Below, piece by piece: positions 4,349 to 8,155 of a stretch of 12,806 bases of DNA. The stretch's first letter is position 1. Each line of letters starts with the position of its first letter. Under the pieces are notes generated by a model. It was not told the DNA's origin. It worked only from the letters and a program-made list of their open reading frames with translations, and did no database searches. The stretch comes from an uncultured Pseudomonadota bacterium (GTDB lineage Bacteria > Lernaellota > Lernaellaia > Lernaellales > Lernaellaceae), in NCBI GenBank assembly GCA_937967875.1, contig CALBTQ010000310.1, positions 1 through 12,806 of the forward strand. Reading direction: 5' to 3'. Both the position numbers and the translations under genes were made by a program.

Positions 4349-5059
4349 ATGAAGGACAAACCGGAATCCTGTGTGGAGCCGGCAGGTGGACCGATTCCAC
4401 CGCCCGGCCAAGAGAAGGAACAGTCACCCCCTACCACCAAATTGGAGGAGAAATCAGCCATGACCGCGCAAGTAGGCAAAAGCGCACCGAATTTCGAAGC
4501 GTCCGTCTATTTCGAAGGCGGCTTCAAGAACATCAAACTTTCCGATTATCTGGGCAAATGGGTCGTGCTTTGCTTTTACCCGGGTGATTTCACCTTTGTC
4601 TGACCGACCGAATTGGCGGCAGTTGCCGCCAAAGCCGACGTCCTGGACAAACTGGGCGTGCAGGTGCTTTCGGTCAGCACGGACAGTCGTTTTACCCATA
4701 AAATCTGGCAAGAAGAAGAACTGGGCAAGATGGTCAAGGGCGGATTCCCCTACCCGATGATTTCCGATCAGAACGGCGCGATCGGCAAGATCTACGGCGT
4801 GTACGAACCGGCCGCCGGAGTGAATATCCGCGGTCGTTTTATCATCGATCCGGACGGCGTGATCCAGGCGATGGAAGTGCTCACTCCCTCCGTGGGCCGC
4901 AACGTGAATGAGTTGATCCGGCAGGTGCAGGCGTATCAGCACGCGCGGGCGACCGGTGAAGTGATGCCCTCGGATTGGACGCCGGGCAAACCGACGCTCA
5001 AACCTCATCCGGACCTGGTCGGCAAGGTCTGGAAAGTTTGGAAACCGAAGAAGTCGTAA
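4349..5059 (+). CDS. Selenocysteine peroxiredoxin, AhpC/Prx1 type (in-frame TGA at 4601-4603 = Sec)
   Basis: Reading through the TGA gives a 236-residue peroxiredoxin, a thiol/selenol peroxidase reducing H2O2 and organic hydroperoxides. Sec85 sits in PGDFTFVUPTEL, where the family has its peroxidatic Cys (P-x3-T-x2-C). Other family marks are T82, R184 in SVGRNVNEL and [12 protein letters not shown] at about 162-172. The resolving Cys expected in the C-terminal GEVCP motif is replaced by Met (GEVMPSDW, M206). The only other cysteines are C8 and C75. Two starts are possible. ATG 4349 has a strong AAAGGAGG and adds a Pro-rich 37-residue extension with C8. ATG 4460, also preceded by GGAGGA, gives a 199-residue protein of normal family length with Sec at 48. 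A SECIS-like hairpin follows the TGA. Other genes here end in TGA, so the codon is not generally reassigned. A nonsense mutation is the alternative, but a second similar case next door argues against it. Confidence 0.9.
4601..4632 (+). promoter_or_regulatory. Sec UGA codon and bacterial SECIS-like hairpin, first selenoperoxidase
   Basis: TGA is at 4601-4603. A perfect 8-bp stem, TTGGCGGC (4613-4620) with GCCGCCAA (4625-4632), closes an AGTT loop (4621-4624). The loop starts 17 nt after TGA and has G in its second position. This meets the published general bacterial SECIS model (loop roughly 16-37 nt from UGA, G among the first two loop bases). By family knowledge it would bind SelB and direct Sec-tRNA insertion. 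Confidence 0.8.
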
Positions 5060-5075
5060 TTGATTCTAACGAACG

Positions 5076-5109
5076 AAACGCCGCAACCGGCCGGTGGCGG
5101 CGTTTTTTT
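5076..5109 (+). terminator. Rho-independent terminator after the first selenoperoxidase
   Basis: A 9-bp stem, AAACGCCGC (5076-5084) with GCGGCGTTT (5097-5105), encloses a GC-rich loop and runs into seven Ts (5103-5109). It separates the two selenoprotein genes into different transcription units unless read through. Confidence 0.85.
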
Positions 5110-5156: not shown

Positions 5157-5185
5157 TTCACAGAAGGCGCAGAAACTGTTAATAT
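5157..5185 (+). promoter_or_regulatory. Candidate sigma-70 promoter for the second selenoperoxidase
   Basis: TTCACA (5157-5162, five of six bases) and TAATAT (5180-5185) are spaced 17 nt apart, with an extended -10 TG at 5177-5178. It is placed between the preceding terminator and the gene start at 5231, giving a leader of about 40 nt. Confidence 0.55.
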
Positions 5186-5230
5186 TGCTGGGACATTCGT
5201 TTAAGGATCGGCATCACTTGGGGAGGGACG

Positions 5231-5692
5231 ATGCTCAAGGTCTACGATCGAGCGCCTACATTTACCGCCCATACGCACACCGGCGGTACGTTCAATCTGA
5301 AACAGGCGCGACAGGAAAACACGATCGTGCTGGTGTTCCTGCGCGGCTTTTCGTGACCCTACTCGCGCAAGCATCTGGTCCAGATGCGGGACGCGATCGA
5401 TCACTTCAAGGCGATGGACGCGCAGGTCGTCGTCGTGGCGCGGCACGATTACGCGCAAATGAAGGCGTTCTGGAAGGAGCACAAGCTGCCGTTCATCGGC
5501 ATTCCCGATCCGCAGGGAACAATCGGCAAGCAGTACGGTCAGCAGTGGAAGCCGTGGCGGCTGGGGCTGATGCCGGCGCTGTTCATCATCGATCGCGACG
5601 GGCTCATCGCCCACGCGCATTACAGCAAGGGCATGACCGACATTCCCAGCAACGAAACGCTCTTCAGCCAGATGCGCCAATTGAAGCGCTGA
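5231..5692 (+). CDS. Selenocysteine AhpC/TSA-like thioredoxin-fold protein (in-frame TGA at 5354-5356 = Sec)
   Basis: Reading through the TGA gives 153 residues with one continuous thioredoxin-fold pattern. The N-terminus (KVYDRAPTFTAHTHTGGTFN) is the usual AhpC/TSA opening. FLRGFSUPYSRKHL with Sec42 matches the family's RGxWCPYCR active-site region, and ALFIIDRDGLIAHAHY at about 116-131 is the second conserved block. The position of the second Cys of CxxC is Ser45, and the whole protein contains no cysteine, so Sec is its only redox residue. A peroxidase or thiol/selenol oxidoreductase role is expected; the substrate is unknown. There is no signal peptide, so it is cytoplasmic. Start ATG 5231 has GGGAGGG four to five bases upstream and is the only sensible start, because the frame downstream of the TGA would lack the first beta strands. 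The genes on both sides share its strand. Confidence 0.88.
5354..5396 (+). promoter_or_regulatory. Sec UGA codon and bacterial SECIS-like hairpin, second selenoperoxidase
   Basis: TGA is at 5354-5356. A perfect 7-bp stem, GCATCTG (5371-5377) with CAGATGC (5381-5387), closes a GTC loop (5378-5380). An outer 5-bp stem, TCGCG (5363-5367) with CGCGA (5392-5396), lies beyond an internal loop. The apical loop begins 21 nt after TGA. The tip reads GGTC, recalling the GGUCU at the tip of the E. coli fdhF SECIS. Confidence 0.82.
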
Positions 5693-5767: not shown

Positions 5768-6421
5768 ATGACCGCAGCATCCCAACAAGCGTTGACCGGT
5801 TTACGCGACCTGTCCACCCTGCAGTGGTACGTGATTCCGCTGCTGGCGATCGTCATGCTCGTCTACGCCAAGGAAATCAACAAGGCGCGCTTGAACGGCA
5901 ACTGGAACGCCGTGTTCGCCGGGTTGACCGTTTTCGGCATGGATTTCGTCAACGAAACATGGAACGGCTGGGTGCTGGCGATCGGCGGACGTTCGGCGGT
6001 GTGGACGACGCCCGGACCGACGGCGCTGCGCACGATGGCCGGCTGGAACATCGAGATCATGTTCATGTTTCTCCTGGCGGGGATCGTTTATTATTATTCG
6101 TTGTCGCCCGACAAAGACGAAAAGATTCTCGGCCTGCGTAACGACTGGTTCTGGGCCGTCGGCTTCAGCGTGTTCTGCGTGTTCGTCGAGTGCCTGTTGA
6201 ACATGGGCGACCACCTGGTCTGGGAGTACGAGTACTGGTTCCTGTCGTTCAAAGGCGTGTGGCTGATCTTCTTCTTCGGCTACTTCCACTTCTTCGTCGC
6301 CACACTGATCGTAGTGCGGCTCAAAACGATCAAGGCCAAGGCGATCGTCGTCGGGTCGATGTACGGCCTGGCGATCTTAATGAACATTTTCGGCATGGGG
6401 ATCATGGGCTGGGTGTATTGA
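5768..6421 (+). CDS. Polytopic membrane protein of unknown function
   Basis: I do not recognise this 217-residue protein. Six hydrophobic segments are visible, at about 19-34, 48-72, 94-112, 126-147, 158-183 and 191-216, so it is an integral inner-membrane protein. Polar and aromatic residues lie inside the helices: DFVNETWNGW in the second (D59, N62, E63, W65, N66), E96 in the third, ECLLNMGDH in the fourth (E141, C142, N145) and HFF in the fifth (H174). This pattern suggests a buried functional or metal/haem-type site, but that is inference. GAGG (5758-5761) precedes the ATG by 6 nt. It sits 75 nt after the second selenoperoxidase with no obvious terminator between them, so it could be co-transcribed with it. 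A Fur-box-like palindrome lies in that gap. The next gene follows after 46 nt on the same strand. Confidence 0.85.
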   Translation: MTAASQQALTGLRDLSTLQWYVIPLLAIVMLVYAKEINKARLNGNWNAVFAGLTVFGMDFVNETWNGWVLAIGGRSAVWTTPGPTALRTMAGWNIEIMFMFLLAGIVYYYSLSPDKDEKILGLRNDWFWAVGFSVFCVFVECLLNMGDHLVWEYEYWFLSFKGVWLIFFFGYFHFFVATLIVVRLKTIKAKAIVVGSMYGLAILMNIFGMGIMGWVY

Positions 6422-6467: not shown

Positions 6468-6812
6468 ATGAGACCTTGGTTATTGTTTGCATTGCTGTGC
6501 GTATCGGTGTGCTTGTCGGTCGGCCTGCTCATCGCCTGCGGGGACGACGATGACGACGATGACAACGATGACGACAACGATGACGACGACGACAACTCGA
6601 CCTACGCCGGTTGCGCCGGCATCTGCCAGCGCGGCTACGAGTGCTTTGGCGATGAATACGGCGAATATGACAGCATGGACGATTGCATCGAGCAATGCGA
6701 AAGCGACATGGCAAGCCTCGACGAGGCGACCGCCAATTGCATCTACGGCTGTAATAGCATTACCGATTGCGAAGACTGGGCGGCCTGCACCAGCGAGTGT
6801 GCGGGATACTGA
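6468..6812 (+). CDS. Small Cys-rich lipoprotein with Asp/Asn tract
   Basis: This 114-residue protein has a signal peptide (about 1-23) and a good lipobox, L21-I22-A23-C24. Gly at +2 gives no inner-membrane retention signal, so outer-membrane sorting is plausible. An Asp/Asn tract of about 18 residues follows (26-43). The remaining ~70 residues hold ten cysteines, many spaced as C-x3-C and C-x5-C (for example CAGIC, CIEQC, CIYGC, CTSEC). An even number of Cys in an exported domain suggests five disulfides and a small rigid fold. I recognise no family and no enzyme motif. GGGAGGT precedes the ATG. It is followed by a strong terminator and may end a transcript shared with the upstream membrane protein. 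The tract is encoded by near-perfect GAC/GAT/AAC triplet repeats, which are prone to length change. Confidence 0.85.
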   Translation: MRPWLLFALLCVSVCLSVGLLIACGDDDDDDDNDDDNDDDDDNSTYAGCAGICQRGYECFGDEYGEYDSMDDCIEQCESDMASLDEATANCIYGCNSITDCEDWAACTSECAGY

Positions 6813-8082: not shown

Positions 8083-8155
8083 TAGACCTGGGGGGACTCG
8101 AACCCCCAACCAACGGATTAAGAGTCCGCTGCTCTACCGATTGAGCTACAGATCT
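8083..8155 (-). tRNA. tRNA-Lys (anticodon CTT)
   Basis: A 73-nt cloverleaf is seen on the minus strand. The acceptor stem AGATCTG pairs with CAGGTCT with one wobble. The D arm holds GCTCAATCGGTAGAGC, and the anticodon stem GCGGA/TCCGT encloses loop CTCTTAA with CTT at 34-36. The T arm is GGGGG-TTCGAGT-CCCCC, and the discriminator is A. CCA is not encoded. It decodes AAG lysine codons. It has its own promoter and terminator, so it is a single-gene unit. Confidence 0.96.

Follow-up and report, generated by a model that had tools for sequence, protein, structure and literature searches.

Selenoproteins related to peroxiredoxins (Prx) have been described in several forms, which can be told apart by the position of selenocysteine (Sec, U) in a four-residue active-site box. 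PMC1088965 defines a Prx-like family by UXXC where peroxiredoxin has TXXU, and PMC2398784 likewise gives UxxC for Prx-like 1-3 and describes neighbouring selenoprotein genes as rare, one Prx/Prx-like 2 pair being among them. In Table 1 of PMC13188914, Prx-like proteins of PF00578 are entered as UxxC or UxxU and redoxins of PF08534 as UxxC, with neither UxxS nor UxxA under these two domains; UxxS appears in this class only for a cd02970 protein of an Olavius symbiont, which PMC9312934 gives as pfam13911. Here we describe a gene at positions 5231-5692 of a 12,806-nucleotide stretch of DNA from an uncultured bacterium (contig CALBTQ010000310.1; the whole stretch is referred to as the window), which, judged from strong comparative sequence evidence, is a real and correctly observed selenoprotein gene encoding a Cys-free UxxS member of a UxxA/UxxS variant of this known kind. 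It lies beside the gene for PrxU, another selenoprotein. New here are the conserved recoding signature of the variant, its active-site register and the extent to which its members are mis-annotated. A literature search returned no paper containing both 'selenoprotein' and 'UxxA', although the clade could still be described in the 2007 Olavius or the 2025 neighbourhood paper.

Each of the closest described systems shares part of this architecture. The Prx-like thiol:disulfide oxidoreductase selenoproteins (PF00578, UxxC/UxxU) possess the same AhpC-TSA domain with Sec first in the box, and UxxC members from Chloroflexota and other genomes fall in the same tree; the window protein differs from them in its fourth position, which is Ser (Ala in the other 21 sequences of its clade) where theirs is Cys or Sec, and in a chain free of Cys. 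It has the UxxS motif and the AhpC/TSA class in common with the Olavius symbiont protein, from which it is set apart by domain description only, in that it matches PF00578 and PF08534 and gives no PF13911 match at 1e-3 (PF13911 is reached by 2 of the 27 relatives in our family alignment). The best NCBIfam match is the SelL-related redox protein model NF040769, matched by all 27 alignment rows at 1e-3 or better, but the window protein scores 68.4 bits against a curated cut-off of 120, and for the other 26 rows there are E-values only (best 1.8e-21). SelL itself is UxxU. PrxU (NF040737) likewise has a peroxiredoxin domain, Sec and a hairpin after the UGA, but its box is TxxU, with Sec at the opposite end, and in profile alignment it has Arg where the window protein has Pro115. 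The 1-Cys peroxiredoxin AhpE (1xxu) has the peroxiredoxin TxxC box and the Arg, named as R116 in the title of a structure entry. Among the ResA/TlpA-type thiol-disulfide oxidoreductases (3hdc, 1st9), of which ResA is exported, 3hdc aligns the first position of its CxxC box and its Pro with Sec42 and Pro115, yet it has two Cys in the box and no Sec.

The in-frame UGA, its hairpin and the decoding machinery

The reading frame starts with ATG and is interrupted by a single in-frame TGA at codon 42. With this codon translated as U the context becomes FLRGFSUPYSRKHL, the fourth box position is Ser45, and the product is without any Cys. The preliminary description of this DNA had pointed to a TGA at the active-site position of a UPYS box, to Ser in place of the second Cys and to a Cys-free chain, all of which hold on direct sequence check.

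Scanning of named genomes for relatives gave 28 loci, 27 of which span the Sec site; L027 lacks the active site and was dropped before counting. From the loci of this and the other scans, L030-L032 (duplicates of L016, L002 and L007), L094 (the gene of L019 again), L047 and L068 (pieces of one frame-broken copy) and L069 (a duplicate of L023) were likewise dropped. A single assembly contributes both L009 and L010 as separate copies. Every one of the 27 loci, which come from several phyla, has TGA at the Sec site and a possible in-frame start codon upstream, and in 26 the frame continues through the C-terminal part of the family. Genomes were also sampled by phylum. In the phylum of L007's genome (297 genomes) there were 23 matches of at least 100 bits in 18 genomes, comprising 18 with one TGA, four Cys paralogues that all belong to one genome (CKQS, CRYT, CRNS and CRNS), and the tail of a frame-broken copy whose head carries TGA. 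The phylum of Anaerolinea thermolimosa (251 genomes) yielded 31 matches at E 1e-25 in 30 genomes, 30 with TGA (one of them also with TAA) and one with TGC, and that of L019's genome (235 genomes) yielded two matches above 100 bits, both with TGA, one being L019's own. Wherever the DNA of a family match above 100 bits was seen, the site reads TGA or TGC and never TGG, and Cys is found there in protein entries as well. By these comparisons the family consists mainly of Sec proteins, among which a Cys protein turns up now and then, as one would expect of a selenoprotein and its Cys counterparts, and a check of residue 42 among homologues, as proposed in the preliminary description, comes out in its favour.

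Several of these genomes hold more than one copy. The Asgard archaeon Candidatus Borrarchaeum yapensis (L028:4400-5432) has two adjoining family members, of which one has the box UGHU, encoded with two TGA codons, and the other UPYC; genome G111 (L060-L063, L039) has one Sec copy, UPFA, with four Cys paralogues bearing Ser or Thr at the fourth position; and genome G037 (L036, L064) has a UPYA copy and a second Sec copy, UKQS, which pairs in the tree as sister with a Cys paralogue.

In a tree of 63 rows the window protein falls in a 22-row set made up of 21 UxxA sequences and itself as UxxS (support 100/99), where its long end branch leaves its exact place unsure. The wider 30-row group lacking the second Cys (UxxA, UxxS, CxxS and CxxT) has a support of just 81/67. 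Over the 27 alignment rows the fourth box position is Ala in 19, Cys in six, Thr in one and Ser in one, and Cys outside the box is absent from 24, with one each in L010, L019 and L023. We therefore place the window protein, on its sequence relationships, in a nearly Cys-free UxxA/UxxS clade of the known UxxC Prx-like selenoproteins. Since the Cys paralogues carry Ser or Thr at position 45, the lack of the second Cys is not tied to Sec.

Downstream of the UGA lies the hairpin GCAUCUG-GUC-CAGAUGC, with seven perfect pairs, a GUC loop and a GGUC (5377-5380) whose first G is nucleotide 21 after the TGA, exactly as first reported. Taken by itself it departs only mildly from expectation (z -2.34, equalled by 4 of 200 shuffled sequences). 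When the protein was recoded synonymously 2000 times, the fold stood out with P=0.003 for the 33-nucleotide apical part and 0.006 for 45 nucleotides, and the stem length was unremarkable (P=0.17) because His-Leu-x-Gln-Met readily encodes such a stem. It is conservation, and not folding energy, that places the hairpin beyond chance. Codon choice was analysed in the 22 of 43 TGA loci that have HLxxM after Sec, which form the closest clade, over the 57 columns in which 19 or more rows agree in residue, leaving aside Met, Trp and Sec. A single invariant codon is found in just three of the 57, and all three are in the stem: His48 (CAT, 22/22), Leu49 (CTG, 22/22) and Gln51 (CAG, 19/19). Nearby invariant residues vary in codon, with five in use for Arg46 and all four for Pro43. 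Given the codon usage of each locus, the chance of such invariance is 8e-7 for His48, 1e-10 for Leu49 and 4e-4 for Gln51, uncorrected for kinship. Codon invariance and alignment together show that the closest relatives retain the hairpin and the G of its loop, as the preliminary description would have it. Other clades have different hairpins near the same place, such as GGCACC-UGGA-GGUGCU in L036 and L037 and, in rows with HMAQLR or HLAQLR (L023 and L025, for instance), a stem of the GCGC-AGUU-GCGC type, and several further rows have other or weak folds after the UGA. An Rfam search with the hairpin gave nothing meaningful (three matches at E 3.8-8.8).

The machinery for Sec decoding was searched for in 26 genomes with relatives and 14 control genomes, L010 being left out as it shares an assembly with L009, and L027's genome also. 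SelB scored over its cut-off in 22 of the 26 genomes versus 2 of the 14 controls, and tRNA-Sec in 21 versus 5; all 26 have one or both. In the phylum of Anaerolinea thermolimosa SelB is present in 29 of 30 family carriers versus 165 of 221 other genomes, a modest excess (Fisher P 0.0046, uncorrected for kinship).

Active-site register on a peroxiredoxin-like fold

Pfam AhpC-TSA (PF00578) and Redoxin (PF08534) match the window protein and all 27 rows of the family alignment. Its structure was modelled (predicted local distance difference test score, pLDDT, 92; predicted template modelling score, pTM, 0.89), and the structures nearest to the model are the 1-Cys peroxiredoxin AhpE and Bcp, with ResA near (Foldseek template modelling score about 0.77). 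The active site follows a different pattern. In profile alignments Sec42 falls on a Thr of 2ywn and a Ser of 2cx3, residue 45 on the Cys and Pro115 on the Arg of both, and against 3drn Sec42 falls on Thr likewise. The same profile sets Sec42 on the Thr of TFVU in PrxU, Ser45 on the PrxU Sec and Pro115 on its Arg. In alignment with the thioredoxin-family protein 3hdc, Sec42 instead meets the first Cys of CPYC and Pro115 the Pro of LP, and a Pro at residue 115, the cis-Pro position, is invariant in all 27 rows. The window protein thus has the fold and the PF00578 domain of a peroxiredoxin, and lacks both the PxxxTxx(C/U) box with its nucleophile in the last position and the catalytic Arg.

According to PMC2757866, most peroxiredoxins use a cxxC arrangement with Thr or Ser first and hold their Arg where thioredoxins have the cis-Pro; the Cxxc type includes monothiol glutaredoxins as well as glutathione peroxidases, the latter usually with Thr last. 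By these criteria we classify the site as Cxxc-type (here UxxS) on a peroxiredoxin fold. The fold, then, is peroxiredoxin-like and the active site is not, being a thioredoxin-like UxxS site. The earlier designation as AhpC/TSA-like consequently stands for the Pfam domain and the fold, and falls for the catalytic residues.

Taken together, we consider it very probable that UGA 5354-5356 is read as Sec by way of a hairpin in the coding region, and that the product is a protein of peroxiredoxin fold with a thioredoxin-style site, most likely a monoselenol enzyme. The recoding signature, the predicted fold and the register of the site were all computed directly. Decoding would be aided by the hairpin through a SelB-dependent mechanism, as suggested by the relatives. 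In the predicted protein Sec42 would lie ahead of the active-site helix in the first position of a CxxC-type box, Ser45 would take the position of the second Cys, and Met114-Pro115 would be on the cis-Pro loop. Such a Cys-free chain would most likely act as a monoselenol oxidoreductase or peroxidase, whereby the selenolate of Sec42 attacks either a peroxide or an oxidised sulfur, be it a disulfide or some other form, and the resulting selenosulfide or selenenic acid is freed by an external thiol, either a low-molecular-weight thiol or thioredoxin; substrate, reductant and dependence on SelB in the host are what we infer here. A selenenic acid had previously been taken for granted, which we do not uphold: with catalytic residues other than those of peroxiredoxin, a peroxide-formed selenenic acid is only one possibility. 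Its resolution by an external thiol would still be expected.

Several observations weigh against parts of this account. On the side of recoding, core pairs of the hairpin show no covariation or compensatory changes over 21 rows (four of six never vary, a fifth is preserved through U-G in two rows, and the sixth is lost in a single row), the hairpins of relatives mostly have ordinary energies when folded as single sequences, and L026 loses the C-terminal part of the protein. SelB is found in 16 of 18 carriers in the phylum of L007's genome and in 263 of its 297 genomes overall, which makes co-occurrence uninformative there, and the Sec machinery was seen in the genomes of relatives, the window's own organism being only a presumed carrier. 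On the side of the register, PrxU matches the profile weakly (17.5 bits), and when the two window proteins are aligned pairwise by BLASTP, their Sec residues are paired at the cost of a gap; we prefer the profile register because it is consistent across several structures and leaves no gap in the box. Finally, the overall fold of the model is nearest to the 1-Cys peroxiredoxins, and the protein may have a peroxidase role.

This last point leads to the alternative that fares best, namely that the protein is a true hydroperoxidase, a glutathione-peroxidase-like monoselenol in which Sec42 would reduce peroxides and be recycled by external thiols, with the same recoding and register and another substrate. 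Besides the likeness to AhpE, it has in its favour that the neighbouring PrxU is a peroxidase and that glutathione peroxidases are themselves placed in the Cxxc type (see above). Against it stand the absence of the peroxiredoxin TxxC box and Arg from the profile alignments, the invariant Pro in the cis-Pro position, and the lack of a match to the glutathione peroxidase domain GSHPx (PF00255) at 1e-3 for the window protein, with a marginal one in 1 of 27 relatives. We regard this alternative as possible, and as distinctly less probable than a broader monoselenol enzyme.

Headless relatives in the protein databases

Six matches were returned for the window protein itself, and 2869 proteins at E 1e-3 for the alignment of those six; the best 120 of the latter were examined. 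Of these, 118 are at most 130 residues long and annotated as a tail of about 101 residues, and two are full length. The short entries miss the front third of the protein including the active centre. They mostly begin near Met52, shortly past the Sec site; a few begin somewhat before or after that point, and P0085 opens with unrelated residues. Among 120 short database proteins, 118 have no Cys. Many of the short entries start near a Met codon (5384-5386) that sits in the 3' arm of the hairpin (CAG ATG), so that the recoding signal itself supplies the false start.

Such entries are what would be expected if the TGA were a real stop, through pseudogene formation or sequencing error, and only a 102-residue tail from Met52 were made. 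We reject this very improbable reading, as the same codon is TGA at 27 of 27 loci in several phyla with an upstream in-frame start possible and the frame running on in all but one, other members have Cys at the site, and the adjoining PrxU gene contains an independent TGA; the preliminary description had reached the same verdict. A search with a full-length profile returned 7026 proteins, and among the best 120, the 112 that are full length have at the Sec site Trp (93), Cys (18) or Leu (1). While the Trp entries could speak for an alternative genetic code with TGA as Trp, this is hardly credible and is rejected because the gene itself ends in TGA, the genomes of relatives have SelB and/or tRNA-Sec, and TGG was never seen at the site in the DNA of family matches above 100 bits; most simply, these entries would be code-4 gene calls of TGA, many of them on short contigs.

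The PrxU neighbour and what the family may mean

The second selenoprotein gene announced for this DNA is indeed present, its product exceeding the PrxU cut-off by a wide margin (Table 1). The two genes may form separate transcripts, given the terminator-like fold and the promoter-like match between them. There is little to suggest that PrxU is a conserved neighbour: in a search of loci L001-L068, where the flanks of L010 and many other loci were short, a PrxU-like match turned up for L010 alone, some 4.2 kb downstream and with 57% identity, and L048, L053 and L056 give generic matches of 29-34%. A viral origin gained no support, 14 viral stretches fitting a pattern and none encoding a relative (the phages collection was left out), and neither did a plasmid origin, the one plasmid record that matched doing so across no more than the PrxU part, with 70% identity. 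Elsewhere in the window, a 217-residue membrane-like protein directly downstream (5768-6421) has no Pfam or NCBIfam match at 1e-3, two putative lipoproteins (397-2364 and 6468-6812) have long Asp runs after a lipobox-like Cys, and a tRNA gene lies at 8083-8155 on the reverse strand (Rfam RF00005, 74.3 bits).

Table 1. Positions in the window of the predicted selenoprotein genes and associated elements. CDS, coding sequence; SECIS, selenocysteine insertion sequence.
Feature	Position	Strand	Evidence
PrxU, TxxU peroxiredoxin, known selenoprotein	4349..5059	+	NF040737 375.4 bits, cut-off 270
In-frame TGA of PrxU	4601..4603	+	sequence
SECIS-like hairpin of PrxU, 8 base pairs, loop AGUU	4613..4632	+	z -2.74; P 0.03 to 0.13 versus synonymous recodings
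Intergenic terminator-like hairpin with trailing T run	5075..5106	+	fold -20.5 kcal/mol, z -2.54; absent from consensus terminator scan
Promoter-like match TTCACA, 17 or 18 nucleotides, TAATAT/AATATT	5157..5186	+	consensus match only
Ribosome-binding-site-like GGGGAGGG	5220..5227	+	sequence
CDS of predicted Cys-free Prx-like selenoprotein, 153 residues with Sec42	5231..5692	+	PF00578 78.8 bits, PF08534 74.8 bits
In-frame TGA, read as Sec42 of UPYS	5354..5356	+	TGA in 27/27 site-spanning loci (28 loci in all)
Bacterial SECIS-like hairpin: apical stem 5371-5377/5381-5387, loop GUC 5378-5380, outer pairs 5363-5368 with 5390 and 5392-5396	5363..5396	+	folding, codon invariance, alignment
Stop codon TGA of the 5231-5692 frame	5690..5692	+	sequence

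Somewhat more tentatively, we think it probable that the window protein represents a widespread and unrecognised, nearly Cys-free UxxA/UxxS clade in bacteria with Sec machinery, in which a peroxiredoxin chassis has its nucleophile at the thioredoxin end, the resolving Cys has been discarded and a lone selenol does all the chemistry; here its neighbour PrxU carries Sec at the other end of the box, and most members are stored in databases as headless entries of about 101 residues. If this is true, one cell would have two mirrored selenium redoxins. A Cys-free Sec redoxin would provide a clean system for finding out what a lone selenol does that a thiol pair cannot, and the family offers UxxC, UxxA, UxxS and UxxT as well as Cys versions (CxxS, CxxT and CxxC) for side-by-side comparison. 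It also exposes a systematic annotation fault, one that costs nearly all of the best-matching database proteins their active site.
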